From positions 1 through 36,790 of the IMG/VR virus record IMGVR_UViG_3300049846_001307: a stretch of 36,790 nt of DNA. One strand, 5' to 3'. This document shows positions 1 to 36,790 of the stretch, piece by piece. The DNA is from a virus. The position numbers and the translations under genes are program-made. The notes below the pieces were generated by a model. That model saw nothing but the letters and a program-made list of their open reading frames with translations, ran no database searches and was not told the origin of the DNA. Positions within the stretch are counted from its first letter, which is position 1; each line of letters starts with the position of its first letter.

Positions 1-180
1 ACATTGCATGCTTTGTATTTTCTATAGCTTTTAAAATGTCTTTTTCTTTGATTCCAGACGCTTTAGCTTGCACTGTTTTAACCTCTTTAATCACCTCTTT
101 TTCAACCTCTCTCACTTCGAGATTAGATCCTAGTATGCGACCGTCTTCAGTCATTATATAGACATTGCCATATGTATTAA
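1..180. repeat. Terminal direct repeat, left copy
   Basis: These 180 bases recur at the right end of the window (36611-36790) with one difference: T at 53 here, C at 36663. It lies inside a coding region and the change is synonymous (Gly GGA/GGG). The simplest reading is overlap from a circular or circularly permuted assembly. A real terminal redundancy or a sequence-variant join is possible. Confidence 0.95.
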
Positions 181-1548: not shown

Positions 1549-2133
1549 TCAATCAATTAGCTTGTACTTTCTACCGTTAAGTTCAATAATTTCTTGAGTT
1601 TCAGTTGGTTGAGTAACTGTTTCAGGTTCTACACCTGTAATTTTGGTGAATATATCCCAATCAAAATGCGAAATATCAAAGAATTGTTGTTTAAGTTCTT
1701 GAGTTGCTTCGCTCCATGCTTTTTTAAATGCTGTCTGATAGCGAGTTGCATAGGATTCATTTTTATCAAATTCTAGTTTTAATTTCGGAATACTTATTTT
1801 AGAATATTCCTCTTCTGTAAGTTGTGTATTAAACACCCTGTAAGGCTTTTGCTGGCATGAATCAGGGTAATCACGACCATGACTGTCTGAGTAGCAAAAT
1901 AGCTGGTATTCAGACATTTTTAGGTTTTTAGAATAATAGCAAGAGTTGCAATAGTTGCAATAATCGCAAGAGTAGCAATAGTTGCAATAGTTACAACTCT
2001 TGCAACTCTTGCAAGAGTTGCAATAGTCGCAAGAGTTGCAATAGTTACAAGAGTAGCAAGAGTCGCAAGAGTCGCAAGAGTTGCAATAGTTGCAGTAATC
2101 GCAAGAGTTGCAATAGTTGTTGGTATCAGACAT
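1549..2133 (-). CDS. Cysteine triplet-repeat protein
   Basis: This 194-residue protein begins with five residues and then 20 consecutive tripeptides x-[Y/S]-C (x = N, D, K or Y; about residues 6-65), placing a Cys every third residue. A conserved-looking C-terminal domain follows (from about residue 73) with two more Cys (LFCYS, DSCQQ), acidic helices and an FDISHFDWDIF segment, ending ELNGRKYKLID. An internal ATG at 1917 would give the C-terminal domain alone (122 aa). The family and function are unknown. A regular Cys ladder suggests metal binding or a disulfide or beta-solenoid rod, which is inference. It lies between the SSB gene and the secreted-protein gene in the leftward operon. Confidence 0.85.
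   Translation of the reverse strand: MSDTNNYCNSCDYCNYCNSCDSCDSCYSCNYCNSCDYCNSCKSCKSCNYCNYCYSCDYCNYCNSCYYSKNLKMSEYQLFCYSDSHGRDYPDSCQQKPYRVFNTQLTEEEYSKISIPKLKLEFDKNESYATRYQTAFKKAWSEATQELKQQFFDISHFDWDIFTKITGVEPETVTQPTETQEIIELNGRKYKLID
1939..2118 (-). repeat. 9-base tandem repeat encoding x-[Y/S]-C (20 units)
   Basis: There are twenty in-frame 9-mers of the form NAN-TMT-TGY on the minus strand. Variation is concentrated at the first base of codon 1 (A/G/T), giving N/D/Y/K, and the middle base of codon 2 (A/C), giving Y/S. The last codon is almost always TGC, sometimes TGT. Confidence 0.9.
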
Positions 2134-5899: not shown

Positions 5900-6031
5900 A
5901 GTAGATTTTTCAAGGGATTTTGTACCCCCTGTATTGACAAGCGAGTTGCGAGACTCCTTGAAAGATCTATCTCAATACGAAGGTACAAACTTTATGATTT
6001 AGATCCCGCCCAGAAAGGCACGGGTTTTTTT
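5900..6031 (+). ncRNA. Structured leader RNA with terminator/antiterminator arrangement
   Basis: The predicted transcript starts near 5900. Nested stems are TTTGTACC/GGTACAAA (5919-5926 with 5982-5989), GTATTGA/TCAATAC (5931-5937 with 5972-5978), CAAG/CTTG (5938-5941 with 5957-5960) and GAGT/ACTC (5943-5946 with 5953-5956). A terminator follows: CCCG/CGGG (6005-6008 with 6021-6024), strengthened by CC/GG, and seven T. GGGAT (5914-5918) can pair with ATCCC (6003-6007), which would break the terminator. This is either a riboswitch-like attenuator for the gene at 6056 or a free small RNA of about 130 nt. It matches no family I recognise. Confidence 0.7.
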
Positions 6032-11242: not shown

Positions 11243-11938
11243 ATGTCTGAATTACCGAAAATAATCCACGAAACACCAGCTCAAGCCCCACGGTTTGAAG
11301 TTTACAACAAAATAGTCACACCAGTGCAAGCCATAAAACAAACTAGAGACTGGCAGAGGCAAGGTCTGAAAGTGGCTGTTACTGATGTTGTTTGTGACAT
11401 ACCGCAACACCTCCATAAAGAATATTTGGCAACCATTGCCAGCCTATCTAATAAGCTTGTTGTCCGAGTCGACACAGACAAGCATGCAAAAGAAAAAAAA
11501 GGTCATCCAAAATTACCACCCGAACTAGACAAACCATACAACACACTAGAATACAGACAAAAAGATTTGGCACACTTGCCATACGTTGACCTGATCACAG
11601 AGAAAGCACATGGTAGTCTCAATTGGATCTCGATTTTTAAGCCCGACATAATCATAAAATCCACGACAAGTGGTCAAAAATTGATAGCTGAAATTAAAGA
11701 ATTACAGGAGTTGATCGTGGTTTTAGGTCAACCAACCCAAATCATTATTTTAGATGAGAATTGTGACGTTGTAGATCACTCAGAGGCACTAGACAAAGCC
11801 ATCGAGTACGATAATAACAAATACGATAAAAAACACCATAGTGGCTCTACAATCACCAAAAAGATTGAAGATAGATTTATGGCACTTAACCAAGATAATT
11901 TAAAATGTGATATACCACCAAAATATATTGATTGGTAA
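11243..11938 (+). CDS. Cytidylyltransferase-fold protein with degenerate HxGH motif
   Basis: This 231-residue protein follows the order of the RfaE-C/glycerol-3-phosphate cytidylyltransferase family: DIPQHLHKEYL (52-62) at the HxGH place, LVVRVDTDK (72-80), a KKGHPKLPPE loop, YRQKDLAHLPYVDLITE, FKPDIIIKSTTS (132-143) and a terminal GSTITKKIEDRF like the STT motif. In the first motif the first His is Gln and Gly is Leu; only the last His (58) remains. It may still bind nucleotides but altered or lost catalysis is likely. True relatives join a nucleotide to a phosphorylated sugar or pantetheine. Here the role could be in surface sugar, NAD or base-modification chemistry. It ends before the terminator at 11965. 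Confidence 0.7.
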   Translation: MSELPKIIHETPAQAPRFEVYNKIVTPVQAIKQTRDWQRQGLKVAVTDVVCDIPQHLHKEYLATIASLSNKLVVRVDTDKHAKEKKGHPKLPPELDKPYNTLEYRQKDLAHLPYVDLITEKAHGSLNWISIFKPDIIIKSTTSGQKLIAEIKELQELIVVLGQPTQIIILDENCDVVDHSEALDKAIEYDNNKYDKKHHSGSTITKKIEDRFMALNQDNLKCDIPPKYIDW

Positions 11939-12828: not shown

Positions 12829-12853
12829 CAAAATACAAATAAAAACACATATT
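12825..12853 (+). promoter_or_regulatory. Promoter of the modification/packaging genes
   Basis: TTGACA (12825-12830) overlaps the stop of the previous gene. A 17-base spacer with AAATAAA leads to CATATT (12848-12853). The -10 lies in a palindromic stretch (ATTCATA-A-TATGAAT, 12851-12865) that also includes the next start codon, so a repressor could act there. Confidence 0.65.
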
Positions 12854-12859
12854 CATAAT

Positions 12860-13018
12860 ATGAATGATTCGTTGGCGGGCTTATATGTAGTAATATTTCT
12901 AACATCGAGCGTGCCAATGATCACCAACAGGTCTTTTAGGTTGTACCCAGTAATTTATGTGCTGGTCAATCTCTTGACAACTATCATGATGATTTTTTAT
13001 ATATGGCAAAAATTTTAA
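12860..13018 (+). CDS. Small two-helix membrane protein (52 aa)
   Basis: The ATG at 12860 opens a frame through what otherwise looks like a 170-base leader. The protein has two hydrophobic helices (about 6-20, LAGLYVVIFLTSSVP; and 31-48, VIYVLVNLLTTIMMIFYI) joined by a short basic loop (NRSFR), and ends WQKF. It overlaps the ParB-domain gene by 16 bases, so translation is coupled. The size and topology resemble small holins, but the position is before packaging genes. Function unknown. Confidence 0.65.
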   Translation: MNDSLAGLYVVIFLTSSVPMITNRSFRLYPVIYVLVNLLTTIMMIFYIWQKF

Positions 13019-13659
13019 ACAAGGTCAAAAATTGCGAAACAATTAAATGGTCGGAGCTAAAGACTTATGAATTTAACACACTCAAAGACAACAATAATCG
13101 TGATGTAACTAAACTTAAAAACAGTATAATCAATTCGGGTTTTACAAGTCCTTTTTATGTCTGGTCAGATCATAGGTATGTAATCGACGGCACTGGAAGG
13201 CATTTAGCACTATTAGAACTTGAAAAAGAGGGTGTCGACATACCTGATTTACCTTTTGTAGCCATTGAGGCAACCAACAAAAAAGAAGCTTTAAAATTAG
13301 TTTTACAAGTGTCTAGCCAGCACGGTCAAATAACTCAAGCAAGTTTATCTGATTTTACCAGTGTTGATTTTGAAATTGAGGAATTAAAAGAGTTGCAGAT
13401 TGAGGAGTTGAATATCTGGGCTTTAGATTCCTTAACAAATCAATTATCTGATGACTACTCTTTGCTAGACGAAGTGGACGACAAAGAAATTGAGGGTATG
13501 GCAGATGGTGTGAAAAAAGCAATTCAAATTGAATTTACACCTGAAGATTACCAAAGAGCTTATGAACTTTGTCAGCACGCAAGGAGTAAGAAAGTTTATA
13601 TCGGAGAGCATTTAATAGGATTATTACAAAACATAAAAGATGGATATGAAAACGCTTAA
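13003..13659 (+). CDS. ParB/Srx-fold domain protein of the DNA-modification type
   Basis: In this 218-residue protein the N-terminal ParB-like domain (about 15-110) has NNRDVTKLKNSIINSGF, FYVWSDHRYVIDGTGRHLALLEL (D62-G-T-G-R66-H67) and KKEALKLVLQVSSQHGQI. The rest is helical. Phage ParB-fold proteins of this kind bind NTPs and recur beside DNA methylases and TET/JBP oxygenases (Iyer, Aravind and colleagues, base-modification surveys). Here the next gene is such an oxygenase and overlaps by 20 bases. It probably guides or couples modification to replication or packaging (inference). It is not a partition protein: there is no ParA and no HTH. Confidence 0.85.
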   Translation: MAKILNKVKNCETIKWSELKTYEFNTLKDNNNRDVTKLKNSIINSGFTSPFYVWSDHRYVIDGTGRHLALLELEKEGVDIPDLPFVAIEATNKKEALKLVLQVSSQHGQITQASLSDFTSVDFEIEELKELQIEELNIWALDSLTNQLSDDYSLLDEVDDKEIEGMADGVKKAIQIEFTPEDYQRAYELCQHARSKKVYIGEHLIGLLQNIKDGYENA

Positions 13660-14440
13660 TTTGGAACTAAAACAACACAACGTAAAGATGGGTCAGGAGT
13701 GTCCATATTACAAGCCAAATGTAATAGAAGATACTCTGTTTGTGTTTGAAGGGAAAGCAGTAGGCTTTTATATTAAAAAATTAGAGGGGAAAATAGCTAA
13801 ACTTTTAGAAATTGCCAACACAGAACTTTTAAGTGACAGGGTGCCAAAAAGTGAAATGAACAGAAAACAAACTGATGGAGTAGATGAAAAAACAGGGCTT
13901 TATAAATATAAAAATTGTGTGGTGCAATATTCTACAATTATAGGCAGTGTGCCTCCAAAACCACACATGAAAAGAGCTTATCCAACCATTTCATCTGTTC
14001 ACCAAGTTAAAACAGCTCAAAACTTTATTAAAGCTATGTTGTTAGTTTGCAAGGAAGGTGAAAATATTTTAAAAGAAATAATGCCTGAGCAATATGAAAC
14101 ACAAAAACAAATCTTATTACAAATACCTAAGCAATGGCGATTTGGTAATTTGTTTACAAGCTCAATTTCAAATTTCAATATAAATGCTAATTTCCATAGA
14201 GATACTGGCAATTTAAAAAACACAGTTAATTTTATATTTACTAAAAGAAAAGATGCAGAGGGTGGTTGCTTACACGTACCAGATTTTGATTTAACTATAG
14301 AACAATCTGATAATAGTTTATTAGTTTATCCAGCATGGCAAAATGTCCACGGTGTCACACCGATAGTTCAACATAATGCAAAAGGATATAGAAACAGCTT
14401 GATATTTTACCCTTTACAGGCTTTTCAAAATTTAAATTAA
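13640..14440 (+). CDS. TET/JBP-type 2-oxoglutarate/Fe(II) dioxygenase
   Basis: In this 266-residue protein the double-stranded beta-helix core has the iron triad and 2OG-binding Arg in order: NANFHRDTGN (H186, D188), GGCLHVPDF, LLVYPAWQNVHGVTP (H237) and GYRNSLIFY (R251). The upstream FGNLFTSSISNFNIN block is the lead-in seen in phage TET/JBP-like enzymes. These enzymes hydroxylate the methyl group of 5-methylcytosine or thymine in DNA. No methylase or glycosyltransferase is visible in the genome, so the substrate is thymine or a host-made 5-methylcytosine. It is coupled to the ParB-fold gene and lies 4 bases before small terminase. The start is ATG 13640, or 13646 two codons on. Confidence 0.85.
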   Translation: MDMKTLNLELKQHNVKMGQECPYYKPNVIEDTLFVFEGKAVGFYIKKLEGKIAKLLEIANTELLSDRVPKSEMNRKQTDGVDEKTGLYKYKNCVVQYSTIIGSVPPKPHMKRAYPTISSVHQVKTAQNFIKAMLLVCKEGENILKEIMPEQYETQKQILLQIPKQWRFGNLFTSSISNFNINANFHRDTGNLKNTVNFIFTKRKDAEGGCLHVPDFDLTIEQSDNSLLVYPAWQNVHGVTPIVQHNAKGYRNSLIFYPLQAFQNLN

Positions 14441-14444
14441 ACCT

Positions 14445-14894
14445 ATGGCAACAGCAAAATATAATTGGCAAGAAATCAAACAAAAGTACTTAGAGGGTGA
14501 GATTGTTGAGGTGACAGAATTTTTACAGAATTTTTACAGAATTAAGACAAAAGACTATGCAAGGCAGACAAAAGGATGGAGAGATGAAAAAGAACAGATC
14601 TTAAAAACTCAAACTGAAAATGCCAAAAAGGAATTAGAAAACGACCCAACCATAAAACTTAAAAATCAAAACATTTTAAAAGCTATTGATAATGTGGAGA
14701 TTATGGTAGCTCAAATAATCGGGAACAAAGGCAGTTTTAGCATAGAAGATTTGCCAAAAGTAAAGATCGGGTGGGAAATTTTAAGAGTTAGTCAGAACTT
14801 GCCTACTACGTATACTAAGAATGATAACAACAACCTAAACACAGACTTAAAAACCATTTTAAAGGATCTTACAGAAGCGGAAGATGTCAACTAG
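14445..14894 (+). CDS. terS: Terminase small subunit
   Basis: This 149-residue protein has the HTH-like opening of TerS proteins (YNWQEIKQKYLEGEIVEVTEFLQNFYRIKTKDYARQTKGW), then a helical oligomerisation region and a polar Asn-rich tail. It recognises phage DNA for packaging and delivers it to the large subunit, whose gene overlaps by 11 bases. The HTH-coding part contains an 11-base tandem repeat (14514-14543) that might belong to the packaging site. The call rests on HTH plus position. Confidence 0.8.
   Translation: MATAKYNWQEIKQKYLEGEIVEVTEFLQNFYRIKTKDYARQTKGWRDEKEQILKTQTENAKKELENDPTIKLKNQNILKAIDNVEIMVAQIIGNKGSFSIEDLPKVKIGWEILRVSQNLPTTYTKNDNNNLNTDLKTILKDLTEAEDVN
14514..14543 (+). repeat. 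ACAGAATTTTT tandem repeat inside terS
   Basis: Two full copies and 8 bases of a third copy of the 11-mer lie in the TerS HTH codons. Eleven is not a multiple of three, so the repeat is read in different frames and is not protein-driven. Pac sites often lie in terS, which makes this a candidate. Confidence 0.7.
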
Positions 14895-16365
14895 TCTCCT
14901 AAAAAAAGGAATTTACAAGATTAAAGACAAAGACTCAAAGGCAGTCCGATATATTCGCAATACTGCACAAAGGCAATATGTAGCTAAAAAAGAAAATAGC
15001 ACTAAAAAAAAGCACGTTATAGTCAAAGCTAGGCAACTTGGATTCACTACCGAGGGTTGTTTATCAATGCTTGACAAAGCGATGACACAACCCTACTACA
15101 GCGGTTTTATTATAGCTCACACCTTGCCAGACGTTGGTAAGATCTTTCAAGAAAAAATCAAGTTTCCTTTTGAGTCATTGCCGACAAGCTTTAAAAACCT
15201 TTATAAGCTGGTACGAGACAACTCAAACGAGATTCGATTCAACAACCCTGAATGTCTGGATTCATATGTTAGGGTGGGCATGAGTGCCAGATCTAGCACG
15301 GTACAAGATCTGCATGTGACCGAAGCTGGAAAGATCGGAGGCGATGAGAATAGGTGGCGAGAATTAGTCACTGGATCTTTCAACGCCGCACAAAATATTG
15401 TAGTTGAGGGTACAGCCGAGGGGTTAAATCACTTTTATGATTTTGTGACCGATATTCAAAGTGATCGTAATAGTGAGTGGGATTTGCATTTTTATAATTG
15501 GACTTTAGACAAAGGATATACAACCAAAGCCCCCGATGATACAAGTTGGATTCAAGACTATGAATTACTGGCTAAAAGACTTTTTTTGTGTCCAGATCCA
15601 GTCAAGACTCACAACCTAAGCATAGACCAGTTTTACTGGTATTACAACAAAGCTAAAGAGCAAAAAGAACTAATAGTGCAAGAGTTTCCATTTACTATAG
15701 AAGAGGCATTTAAGTCGAGTGGAAACAATATATTTAATCAAATAGATGTGTTGAACGCAATCGAGAAGGCACAAAAAGAATACGAATTGATAAAAGGTGT
15801 TACAGTCTGGCAAAAACCTAAAGGAGGTTGTCAATATGTTGTAGGTGTAGACCCTGCAACTGGTGAGGGTGACGATGATAGTGCAATCAGTGTTTGGCGT
15901 TTTGACACGTGCGAACAGGTGGCTGAGATAGCTGGAAAAATGAATCCGACAGAAACAGCATTGGTTGCGGTCAACCTTGCTAACTGGTACAACGAAGCAC
16001 TATTAGGAATAGAAAATAACGGTAACGGTATTGCTACAGTCAACGAAGCCAGAAAGCTAAATTATCCAAAAATCTTTAGAAAGTTTACAGCTGGTGTATT
16101 AGATCCAAAAGTACCAAAATCTGCCAAATATGGTTGGTCGACCAACTTACAAACACGTCCAGTCATGATTGAAGAGTTTAGACAGATGTTTGAAGATGGC
16201 TTGCTTAAGATCAATTCACTAGAACTTTTGAACCAAATGAAAACCTTTGTGAGACACACAAACGGCAAAGTTGAACATGAAACAGGCAAGCATGATGACC
16301 GATTATTTGCTGGTATGATCGCAATCCAACTAAGAAAATCAAACAAACCAGTCACACTACTTTGA
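14884..16365 (+). CDS. terL: Terminase large subunit
   Basis: This 493-residue protein has an N-terminal packaging ATPase with a Walker A variant KARQLGFTT (48-56) and Walker B LHVTEAG with catalytic E147. The C-terminal RNase H-fold nuclease has GVDPATGEGDDDSA (D323), LLGIENNGNG (E377) and KHDDRLFAG (D471/D472). It pumps DNA into the procapsid through the portal and cuts concatemers. It overlaps terS by 11 bases. Its TGA stop overlaps the -35 box of the first late promoter. Confidence 0.96.
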   Translation: MSTSLLKKGIYKIKDKDSKAVRYIRNTAQRQYVAKKENSTKKKHVIVKARQLGFTTEGCLSMLDKAMTQPYYSGFIIAHTLPDVGKIFQEKIKFPFESLPTSFKNLYKLVRDNSNEIRFNNPECLDSYVRVGMSARSSTVQDLHVTEAGKIGGDENRWRELVTGSFNAAQNIVVEGTAEGLNHFYDFVTDIQSDRNSEWDLHFYNWTLDKGYTTKAPDDTSWIQDYELLAKRLFLCPDPVKTHNLSIDQFYWYYNKAKEQKELIVQEFPFTIEEAFKSSGNNIFNQIDVLNAIEKAQKEYELIKGVTVWQKPKGGCQYVVGVDPATGEGDDDSAISVWRFDTCEQVAEIAGKMNPTETALVAVNLANWYNEALLGIENNGNGIATVNEARKLNYPKIFRKFTAGVLDPKVPKSAKYGWSTNLQTRPVMIEEFRQMFEDGLLKINSLELLNQMKTFVRHTNGKVEHETGKHDDRLFAGMIAIQLRKSNKPVTLL

Positions 16366-16391
16366 CAACTCTATTTCGTATAACGTATATT
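16362..16391 (+). promoter_or_regulatory. Late promoter 1 (portal)
   Basis: TTGACA (16362-16367), an 18-base spacer holding CTATTTCGTATAACG, and TATATT (16386-16391). The spacer motif recurs at 19730 and 28361, always before structural genes, and differs from the early-class spacer. Confidence 0.78.
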
Positions 16392-16417
16392 TTTGACATT
16401 ATTACACACAACCATTT

Positions 16418-17950
16418 ATGGCTACCGATATAAAAAAATTACTGGAAAATTCTAGTGAAAGAATGCAAGATTATGAGATCAATCATGAACTATACGAGGG
16501 TGACGCATACGAGATATTTGGTAAACGAGAATACAAGTATTTTGAGATGTACAATCCTAAAAATGCCAAACTAGGTTATATCAATTTCAATGTGTTTGCG
16601 ATTATTAGCAATGTATTTGCCGATATGACATGGAATGAAGCACCAAAAATCACATTTCAAAACAAGGTGAATCAGGAATGGTTTGACCTATGGAGCGATA
16701 CAGTAGGATTTAACATGAAAATGTACGAGGCAACCACACAGGCAAGCATGATTGGCGAGTCAATCCTAAAATTAAATGTTAGGGAGACAATACCCAAAAC
16801 CAAACAATTTAATGTTGTTTTAGATCAAGTTGACCCTACAATTTGGTATCCAATTTACGATGAAAATAATATCTCCAAACCTGCACAATATCAATGTTTA
16901 ATTTTTGGAAAAGAGGTTACTGAACAAAAGAAAGCGTATCTGGTTGAAAAGTATGGTTATGGTGAGGTAATCTATGAATCATATGAGCTAAGTAATAGCA
17001 ACTACGAGCAAATAGACCCACTCATCTACTTTGCTGACGAAATAGGAGCAGTAGAGGCACGAAAAGACGGCTTGACTTATATATCAGAAACTAAAACCTT
17101 TTTGCCACTTGTCACACAACTTATAAACATATCAGAACCGCAAGACTTTCATGGTGTGAGTGACTACACAACAGACCTAAAAAGCCTTTCTAACGAATTA
17201 AATGACGCTTTAACAAGCCTTTCTAGTATTAGACGGAAACACGCCGACCCTTTGTTAATCGTGCCTGAAAGTGCTATACAGCAAGCTATAGTCAAGACCA
17301 AAGGAAACAGTCAAAACAGTGGAGAATTTGGCGACTTCACAGCCACACTAAACCAAGCTGACCAAGTCAATTATGCAGTAGCTCAAGAAGTTATATCTAG
17401 TACGAAAGTAATGGGTATGCCCGCTGACGGATCGATGGCAAAACCCGAATATGTAACGTGGGACGCCTCACTAAGTGCAACTTTCCAAGAGATCGAAATG
17501 ATCAAAAAAATGATCACACAAAGTGCTTGTCTATCACCTATCATATTTGAACCTGATATAAGCACTGGCAATTTATCTGGAGTCGCAATACAACGACTTT
17601 CAATCACCATGATCAATCGAGCAAAAAGAAAGCAAATTTATCTAAGAAAGGCGATACAAGAGATCGTGTTTACAGCTCAACAATTAGCTATTGCAAACAA
17701 CCTAGGTTTAGCTGGTGAAGCTGAAATACCAAACGTTGAATTTGCTGATGGTTTCCCAAATGATCTAAACGAGTTAGTGGTTGCACATCAAGGTCTTTTG
17801 GACGCTGGTTTAGAGACACCCCAAGACGCCATGATTGAAATATTTGGATACACACAAGAGCAAGCGGACTTAAAAGCTCGAGAGATCCAAGACAATGGTA
17901 TAAACACCAATACCCCCATTTTAAATCAAGATAATCAAGTAACTAGCTAA
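16418..17950 (+). CDS. Portal protein
   Basis: This 510-residue protein is of SPP1-like portal size and begins MATDIKKLLENSSERMQDYEI. Typical features are an early helical and YxEGDAYEIF region, FNVFAIISNVFADMTW near the clip/stem, a long central helical part (SNELNDALTSLSSIRRKHADP), and the SPIIFEPDISTGNLSGVAIQRL stretch seen in many portals. It forms the dodecameric ring at the capsid vertex that binds terminase and later the tail. Position between TerL and the MuF head gene supports the call. The next ATG overlaps its stop (TAATG). Confidence 0.92.
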   Translation: MATDIKKLLENSSERMQDYEINHELYEGDAYEIFGKREYKYFEMYNPKNAKLGYINFNVFAIISNVFADMTWNEAPKITFQNKVNQEWFDLWSDTVGFNMKMYEATTQASMIGESILKLNVRETIPKTKQFNVVLDQVDPTIWYPIYDENNISKPAQYQCLIFGKEVTEQKKAYLVEKYGYGEVIYESYELSNSNYEQIDPLIYFADEIGAVEARKDGLTYISETKTFLPLVTQLINISEPQDFHGVSDYTTDLKSLSNELNDALTSLSSIRRKHADPLLIVPESAIQQAIVKTKGNSQNSGEFGDFTATLNQADQVNYAVAQEVISSTKVMGMPADGSMAKPEYVTWDASLSATFQEIEMIKKMITQSACLSPIIFEPDISTGNLSGVAIQRLSITMINRAKRKQIYLRKAIQEIVFTAQQLAIANNLGLAGEAEIPNVEFADGFPNDLNELVVAHQGLLDAGLETPQDAMIEIFGYTQEQADLKAREIQDNGINTNTPILNQDNQVTS

Positions 17951-18833: not shown

Positions 18834-18857
18834 TAAAGCCCCCTAGAGGGGTTTTTA
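18834..18857 (+). terminator. Terminator between head gene and opposing KilA-N gene
   Basis: CCCC/GGGG (18840-18843 with 18848-18851) around TAGA, followed by TTTTTATT. It lies between convergent genes. On the minus strand the flank CTTTAAAAT could allow weak termination there too. Confidence 0.7.
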
Positions 18858-19223
18858 TTCTTGATTTGCAAGGTTGACTATCTCTTCCTCCATCTCTCTA
18901 ATTTTGTCGATTATCTCGTCAACAGTAATTTCTTTTTTGGGGAGGCGTTTTAAAATTTCACTGTCAATGTTTTTTTCAACTTCTATGAAGCAACCGTCAC
19001 CGATCCATAGAGAAAGGTGTAGAGCGACAGCTCTTACTCCATAATAATCTCCTCCTAAGAGTCTGGGCATCAGAGCAGAACCGTTTGATTTATAACACGA
19101 CTTTAAAAATTCCTTTGTGCTAGTTAAATTTAACCAGTCGTCAATGTTTCTATCATACTCTTCACAGATACAACTAAGATTTACATATCTTGGATCATCG
19201 TAGTGGGTTTTTATTTGAGGCAT
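18855..19223 (-). CDS. KilA-N domain protein (122 aa), opposite strand to the late genes
   Basis: The KilA-N fold is recognisable: VNLSCICEEYDRNIDDWLNLTSTKEFLKSC (about 14-43) and GGDYYGVRAVALHLSLWIG (about 57-75), followed by an acidic coiled helix (EITVDEIIDKIREMEEEIVNLANQE). KilA-N is a DNA-binding domain of phage antirepressors and morons. It stands alone, inverted, in the structural cluster with a long gene-poor upstream region, so it looks like an inserted moron. The related full antirepressor is at 34574. No clear promoter is seen upstream. Confidence 0.85.
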   Translation of the reverse strand: MPQIKTHYDDPRYVNLSCICEEYDRNIDDWLNLTSTKEFLKSCYKSNGSALMPRLLGGDYYGVRAVALHLSLWIGDGCFIEVEKNIDSEILKRLPKKEITVDEIIDKIREMEEEIVNLANQE

Positions 19224-34573: not shown

Positions 34574-35323
34574 TTAGGTATTTTGTAATTCTTTCCCTTT
34601 GGTTAGCTTATTTAATAAGTATTTTTGACCTTTGGCAGTAACCATTGTTTTTGTGGTCAAAACATTGTCTCCAGTTTTTGGGTGTATAAAACTTGACTCC
34701 AAAACCACAAAATAGCCATTATTGACAAAAATTTGATACGGTCTGTTTTTGCGATCCAAAATGTCAAAATCTCTAAGCTTAGTAAAAAGAGTGTTTCGAC
34801 CAAAAGGCAATTTTAAAACTTTTGCACATGTCGCCATGTCGATGGCGTTGGTTGTGTCTAATAATGCGGTGGCAAACTCAACCTTGTCTTTGTCTTGCTC
34901 AATCTTGGTTTCTAGCTCTAGTATTTTTTCCTGATCTTCAAGGTGGGCTTTTAATGCTTCAATATAATTTTGTGGAATTTGTTTTTGTTGTGATACAATT
35001 TCAGTCTTGCCAGTTTGTAAAAGCTCATCAAGTTTTTCATTTGCAAATAATTCGAACTCAACACTGATCCATTCAGCAAGTTTTAAAGCAATTCTACGAT
35101 CTCCAAAAGTTCCTTGTTCTTTCCCTTTTCCTAAGGTCTGGGATAATCCCAAACCTTGATCCTTTTTTGTGTAAGCAGTTAAAAATCGTTGAGTATTTGG
35201 CAACCGTTTCCACTCATTAATATCTTTACCAAAATGCTTACAAATCTTTGTGAGATTGACCTTTCCATTTACAACTTCAAAAATACTTAAATCAAAGTTT
35301 TCAACTAAAACTAAATCCGACAT
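34574..35323 (-). CDS. KilA-N antirepressor with C-terminal ANT/KilAC-like domain (249 aa)
   Basis: The N-terminal KilA-N domain has VNLTKICKHFGKDINEWKRLPNTQRFL and TFGDRRIALKLAEWISVEFELFANEKL (about 22-102). A coiled linker follows (ILELETKIEQDKDKV), then the antirepressor C-terminal domain: DMATCAKVLKLPFGRNTLFTKLRDFDILD, PYQIFVNNGYFVV and TMVTAKGQKYLLNKL. Such proteins disable or replace repressors, usually in temperate or regulated phages, but no integrase or CI-like repressor is seen here. Transcription comes from 35418-35446 through an unusual leader with a terminator. Confidence 0.92.
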   Translation of the reverse strand: MSDLVLVENFDLSIFEVVNGKVNLTKICKHFGKDINEWKRLPNTQRFLTAYTKKDQGLGLSQTLGKGKEQGTFGDRRIALKLAEWISVEFELFANEKLDELLQTGKTEIVSQQKQIPQNYIEALKAHLEDQEKILELETKIEQDKDKVEFATALLDTTNAIDMATCAKVLKLPFGRNTLFTKLRDFDILDRKNRPYQIFVNNGYFVVLESSFIHPKTGDNVLTTKTMVTAKGQKYLLNKLTKGKELQNT

Positions 35324-36542: not shown

Positions 36543-36764
36543 TTATAATTTAATTTCTTTTAAAAAATGGTTTAAAATGCTTTCCACTGTGGCTGGTTGC
36601 CAAACTTTAGACATTGCATGCTTTGTATTTTCTATAGCTTTTAAAATGTCTTTTTCTTTGATCCCAGACGCTTTAGCTTGCACTGTTTTAACCTCTTTAA
36701 TCACCTCTTTTTCAACCTCTCTCACTTCGAGATTAGATCCTAGTATGCGACCGTCTTCAGTCAT
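36543..36764 (-). CDS. C-terminal part of the junction-spanning hypothetical protein
   Basis: This frame reads MTEDGRILGSNLEV...ESILNHFLKEIKL, stop at 36543. It is not a complete gene. Upstream of the Met at 36764 the frame stays open to the end of the window and, through the terminal repeat, continues to the ATG at 505. Only 36543-36610 is unique here; the rest duplicates 1-154. Confidence 0.85.
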   Translation of the reverse strand: MTEDGRILGSNLEVREVEKEVIKEVKTVQAKASGIKEKDILKAIENTKHAMSKVWQPATVESILNHFLKEIKL

Positions 36765-36790
36765 TATATAGACATTGCCATATGTATTAA
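36611..36790. repeat. Terminal direct repeat, right copy
   Basis: A second copy of bases 1-180 with one C for T at 36663. The two copies mark where the circular genome was cut in assembly. Confidence 0.95.

Follow-up and report, generated by a model that had tools for sequence, protein, structure and literature searches.

A ParB-fold protein paired with a TET/JBP dioxygenase beside phage terminase genes: a candidate minimal module for hydroxylation of thymine in DNA

The pairing of a ParB-fold protein with an oxygenase of the TET/JBP family is an already known module that aquatic phages carry very frequently. Mycobacteriophages Nigel and KayaCho (gp1-gp2) have the genes in the order ParB-TET-TerS-TerL with nothing between them, and in Prochlorococcus phages MED4-184 / P-HS2 and MED4-117 the ParB gene likewise lies upstream of TET and TerL downstream, an FkbM methyltransferase gene being inserted between ParB and TET. 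A contrasting setting is found in the TETs reached via Methylophilales phage Melnitz-3, where the gene of an M.HhaI-like methylase overlaps the TET gene and the locus is situated near DNA polymerase rather than terminase. Those phage TETs that are best characterized, as Burke et al. reportedly described in 2021, are 5-methylcytosine (5mC) enzymes paired with C5-methylases. The cassettes of actinophages Tonitrus and CaiB begin with ParB and TET, lead towards terminase and add an amino-acid:DNA transferase (ADDT, aGPT-PPlase) and a 5hmU-kinase-type protein; the Tonitrus combination of ParB, TET, aGPT-PPlase and kinase has been interpreted in print as a probable system for hypermodification of thymidine (PMC11955845), and 5hmdU DNA kinases occur in thymidine-modified phages (PMC6449724). 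ParB-CTPase domains serve as versatile modules for NTP binding and in phages are frequently joined to DNA methylases in one protein (PMC12704722). Kinetoplastid JBP1 and JBP2 are eukaryotic proteins that share with the phage enzyme considered here the proposed reaction, that is, conversion of thymine to 5-hydroxymethyluracil (5hmU) in polymeric DNA.

Here, we analysed a ParB-TET pair in a stretch of viral DNA of 36,790 nucleotides (IMG/VR record IMGVR_UViG_3300049846_001307), which as a whole is referred to as the window (Table 1). Its gene order is that of Nigel and KayaCho, and if TET is read from the ATG at 13646, the overlap with ParB has the same length of 14 nt as in Nigel (776-789) and in an Oscillatoria locus (6001-6014); the two mycobacteriophages, however, belong to another phage group, have larger genomes and possess far more distant TETs, those of actinophages being about 25-30% identical to that of the window. 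The closest cultured relatives are the Prochlorococcus phages, with 45% TET identity and a similar genome size. In contrast to Tonitrus and CaiB, the window has neither ADDT nor the kinase, and with the Melnitz type it shares the TET/JBP family and the catalytic set. We consider it probable that this pair represents a ParB-targeted thymine hydroxylase, which would modify phage DNA before packaging and leave 5hmU in it.

Table 1. Position of the ParB-TET pair, the adjacent terminase genes and the terminal repeats in the window
Feature	Position	Strand	Basis or remark
Direct terminal repeat, copy 1	1..180		179/180 identical to 36611-36790
ParB-fold protein, 218 aa	13003..13659	+	ParB/Srx N-domain and conserved C-terminal region (~151-208)
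ParB/TET overlap	13640..13659	+	20 bases from first ATG, 14 from ATG 13646
TET/JBP Fe(II)/2-oxoglutarate dioxygenase, 266 aa	13640..14440	+	Profile, PHROG, fold, conserved residues
Putative small terminase (TerS), 149 aa	14445..14894	+	Position only, as TerS in Nigel, KayaCho
Large terminase (TerL)	14884..16365	+	Terminase_6C E=4e-8; PHROG 2 E=1.8e-23
Direct terminal repeat, copy 2	36611..36790		179/180 identical to 1-180

The oxygenase and its ParB-fold partner

Both open reading frames are present and overlap as originally predicted, and the assignment of the downstream one to TET/JBP-type 2-oxoglutarate/Fe dioxygenases is confirmed by profile search and structure prediction, the two approaches suggested for its verification. 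Pfam family PF12851 (Tet_JBP) matches the frame with E=3.8e-12 and 46.2 bits, the curated cut-off being 34.9 bits, and PHROG 6059 does so with E=1.6e-50; phmmer comparison of the TET sequence alone with solved structures gave nothing useful. The AlphaFold2 model (pLDDT 93.6) has a predicted double-stranded beta-helix of TET type, whose resemblance to TET exceeds that to FTO or AlkB: TET2 and NgTET1 head its structure matches with Z about 19, and FTO (Z 14.5 or lower) and AlkB (Z about 13) rank below them. The HxD...H Fe(II) triad and the distal arginine, noticed at the outset as H186, D188, H237 and R251, are all invariant in an alignment of 50 sequences. Met3 is invariant as well, and because the proteins of 49 relatives begin at the equivalent residue, the true start of TET is probably 13646, which would reduce its overlap with ParB to the shorter of the two lengths given in Table 1.

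Relatives of this enzyme are listed in RefSeq and in PHROG 6059 as queuine tRNA-ribosyltransferase, an assignment ruled out by the TET fold and the Tet_JBP profile. The label recurs in many mycobacteriophage records and is also attached to the TET gene (17129-17914) of NC_020847.1 (locus L002), where the ParB gene (15790-16431) is mislabelled in RefSeq as 'DNA methylase'. The same 'DNA methylase' label of the MED4-184 gene was rejected, its product aligning with ParB along its length; the gene that follows it is of FkbM type and no DNA methylase. One TET relative (L011:6001-6792) has RRD for HRD, i.e., arginine replaces the first metal-binding histidine, and is possibly inactive.

For the upstream frame, a ParB/Noc fold is confirmed by family profiles in combination with a predicted model. 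The frame matches ParB families of PHROGs with E down to 1e-7 and an HMM derived from the ParB proteins of relatives with E=4.4e-30, Pfam itself giving no ParB call, and the fold search with its AlphaFold2 model (pLDDT 76) is led by Noc, pNOB8 ParB and ParB-CDP structures (CTPase domains). G63 and R66 of Box-II/P-motif (GxxR), including its arginine, are retained, and the better conserved part of the protein is its C-terminal region. Of the two proteins, ParB has diverged further, with 22-35% identity to relatives versus 53-62% for TET. By analogy with the described NTP-binding modules the protein is probably a DNA-targeting subunit; a point against such a scheme is that two residue pairs, DN and WD, conserved in about 81 of 88 ParB sequences, are altered here to VS (103-104) and IT (110-111), respectively. 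No convincing coding frame is contained in the ~170 bases 5' of the ParB gene (12829-13002), and a clear ribosome-binding site was not seen at its start.

Gene content of the window and of its relatives

The record is entered in IMG/VR as linear; its ends, however, repeat each other almost exactly, and one open frame of 232 codons runs across them when they are joined. The terminal repeat is probably redundant sequence left by assembly of a genome that is circular or circularly permuted, and the record probably represents this genome in full, with a length of about 36.6 kb. Gene absences can be taken seriously, and a missing methylase located beyond the contig end is made improbable by the 180-base overlap of the ends. 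The absence of methylase, hydroxymethylase and glycosyltransferase genes perceived at first reading withstood profile searches: C5-methylase PF00145, thymidylate synthase/hydroxymethylase PF00303, N6/N4 methylase PF01555, TET-associated glycosyltransferase (TAGT) PF20691 and ADDT PF18724 have no match in the window genome, and a six-frame search with HMMs of relatives' proteins (FkbM, TAGT, kinase, GATase, GNAT, ADDT, and C5-methylase) detected nothing in it either. The tailoring-gene position between ParB and TET, hereafter the slot, is empty. Thus described, the locus carries neither the 5hmU kinase with ADDT/aGPT-PPlase by which a thymidine hypermodification cassette is recognized nor the C5-methylase that distinguishes genomes with a methylase-coupled TET.

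Several other genes of the window deserve mention. A frame approximately 1 kb upstream of ParB (11243-11938, plus strand) is nucleotidyltransferase-like (PHROG 7878, E=1.6e-7, with a weak CTP_transf_like match); its product resembles a sugar-nucleotide adenylyltransferase and could serve a sugar-nucleotide step. The gene at 1549-2133 (minus strand, PHROG 15341) has a long cysteine-rich N-terminal repeat (NYCNSCDYC...), and two related KilA-N genes are found on the minus strand at 18855-19223 and 34574-35323, one of them inside the structural gene block.

TET relatives are present on at least 573 viral contigs according to a single scan, and ParB is situated upstream of TET in 86 of the 93 contigs examined, none being seen in the remaining seven, in agreement with the initial remark that such pairs are already known; the same neighbourhood survey indicated that terminase genes usually come after TET. 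When more TETs were sought in prokaryotic genomes, searches of 395 and of 398 genomes both matched nothing but the seed genome, and GTDB contributed 4 TET loci. Most relatives carry tailoring genes in the slot. TAGT alone is its commonest occupant (32 loci), followed by FkbM (26/86 loci), a kinase alone is encountered in four loci, and other slots contain various GATase/GNAT/ADDT/kinase sets or some unclassified genes. Close relatives, whose TETs are 53-61% identical, have ADDT and P-loop kinase genes there. The slot is empty in four contigs (L063, L067, L069, and L099), and ParB directly precedes TET in the Oscillatoria locus, in a Pedobacter locus, and in Nigel and KayaCho too; the layout of the window is rare among the aquatic relatives sampled, yet it is on record in cultured phages. 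Slot genes of FkbM type are exemplified by L002:16431-17132 and L006:4828-5520, as well as by cultured MED4-184, and in HTVC112P the FkbM gene comes after TET. Such a methyltransferase could O-methylate a hydroxymethyl pyrimidine to give a methoxymethyl base, of which we know of no description.

The original prediction regarded the lack of a methylase as unusual, and this part of it is not supported: in the TET clade of the window such a lack is the norm. PF00145 was detected in 3/14 and 4/50, i.e., 7/64 contigs of relatives, many of which are fragments, and is absent from the other 57; C5-methylase is encoded by one of the eight relatives exceeding 30 kb and by none of the 11 cultured complete genomes with TET of the window type (MED4-184, CaiB, Tonitrus, LilMcDreamy, Prince, Kozie, Ottawa, Prairie, Terij, Nigel, and KayaCho), the last two sharing the exact layout. 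In two of the seven relatives that bear it, the gene is located just downstream of TerL. The Melnitz-type clade, taken as a positive control, has C5-methylase in 20/20 records, and the difference between the two clades gives Fisher p=8e-14, a value that overstates independence because these 20 records form one clade.

Position next to the terminase genes

The ParB-TET pair was initially proposed to lead into terS and terL. For terL this is now corroborated by the Terminase_6C profile, and the assignment of TerS remains positional, no family match having been obtained for its frame in Pfam or PHROGs. TerL of the window shares about 30% identity with lambdoid phage terminases, and an HMM built from the TerLs of relatives does not match it. 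The module thus described adjoins terminases of different families, namely, Terminase_3, Terminase_6 and the lambdoid-like TerL of the window, and because of this diversity its adjacency to them is not merely one inherited block. Synteny with unrelated terminases suggests a packaging link of ParB-TET, and the adjacency itself would be compatible with the pair being co-expressed with late genes or being functionally coupled to packaging. A search by TerL and portal for close relatives of this phage yielded one distant match, the retrieved stretch of which is without ParB-TET.

Substrate of the oxygenase and fate of the modified base

Taken together, ParB and TET would constitute a base-modification module that is minimal and acts after replication. 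The oxygenase is expected to use a 5-methylpyrimidine already present in phage DNA and hydroxylate its methyl group, most likely converting thymine to 5hmU, while its partner encoded in the overlapping frame would act as a DNA-binding, possibly nucleotide-gated subunit bringing the oxygenase to phage DNA. Presumably expressed with the terminase genes, the pair may modify DNA before or during packaging, and the phage would probably benefit from it by resisting restriction by the host. Most relatives would then decorate the hydroxymethyl group by means of enzymes encoded in the slot, and since the slot of the window is empty, bare 5hmU or a product finished by a host enzyme is to be expected.

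Two substrates were originally envisaged, and direct oxidation of thymine in a JBP-like manner is the better supported one, because a methylase is lacking throughout the clade and kinase and ADDT partners are found in close relatives; for host-made 5mC no positive evidence was obtained. Thymine is therefore the most likely substrate, and the annotation of Prince gp2 reads 'thymidine hydroxylase'. A literature search found no biochemical data on the ParB-TET clade. Absence of C5-methylase alone is no proof of a thymine substrate, because TETs of other types (P12024L, HTVC112P, Cr30, DLP6, and C48C1) also occur without one. TAGT glycosyltransferases are known from 5hmC systems, which counts against thymine.

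Whether 5hmU would be the final base is a separate matter. Further tailoring may be performed by an enzyme of the host or by the product of a phage gene not recognized as such, for instance the nucleotidyltransferase-like protein of 11243-11938, a doubtful but conceivable scenario that is compatible with a thymine substrate and overlaps with the preferred explanation. Nearly all relatives possess at least one tailoring gene, the likeness of this product to sugar-nucleotide adenylyltransferases has been noted, and several ORFs of the window have no family match; against it, none of the six frames contains TAGT, FkbM, kinase, ADDT, GATase or GNAT, and a slot gene is also missing from Nigel, KayaCho, the group of four contigs with an empty slot and the Oscillatoria locus. 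With similar reserve we put forward, as a tentative extension of thymine hydroxylation, a free-standing two-gene writer, in which an NTP-gated ParB clamp would load the hydroxylase on packaging-queued DNA and the virion base would be bare 5hmU made in the polymer, without nucleotide-level hydroxymethylase or tailoring.

It seems unlikely that the enzyme instead oxidizes 5mC produced by host methylases, generating 5hmC at host sites and allowing the phage to escape restriction that reads them. Such a possibility is favoured by the asparagine at H+5, shared by the window with its top structural match TET2, by the C5-methylase found in 7/64 relatives and by the fact that those phage TETs which have been studied most thoroughly act on 5mC and work with C5-methylases (PMC12730594). 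C5-methylase, however, is sporadic in the clade of the window if compared to its constant presence in the Melnitz-type records, kinase and ADDT partners of relatives point to hydroxymethyluracil, and at R+8 Leu259 replaces H1904 of TET2, leucine being present in 95/96 sequences. Asparagine at H+5, where Melnitz-3, P12024L, HTVC112P, Cr30 and DLP6 have aspartate, is not diagnostic because it is also characteristic of TET2, a 5mC enzyme; base-pocket residues at these two positions are suggestive rather than decisive as a substrate test. That the oxygenase acts on RNA or protein, as other members of the 2OG/Fe superfamily do, or is inactive, is highly improbable, since FTO and AlkB match it less well (Z of 13-14.5 against about 19 for TET2 and NgTET1), its catalytic residues are all intact and conserved, and DNA is indicated as its target both by the ParB partner and by the DNA-tailoring genes located nearby in relatives.

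To the known ParB-TET module the window adds a clean minimal case. It is among the barest forms of the module, in a genome that appears complete, and comprises the oxygenase and ParB with nothing else recognisable, and as such it makes a clean case for asking what TET does alone, be it on thymine or 5mC, what ParB adds to it, and why the terminase adjoins.
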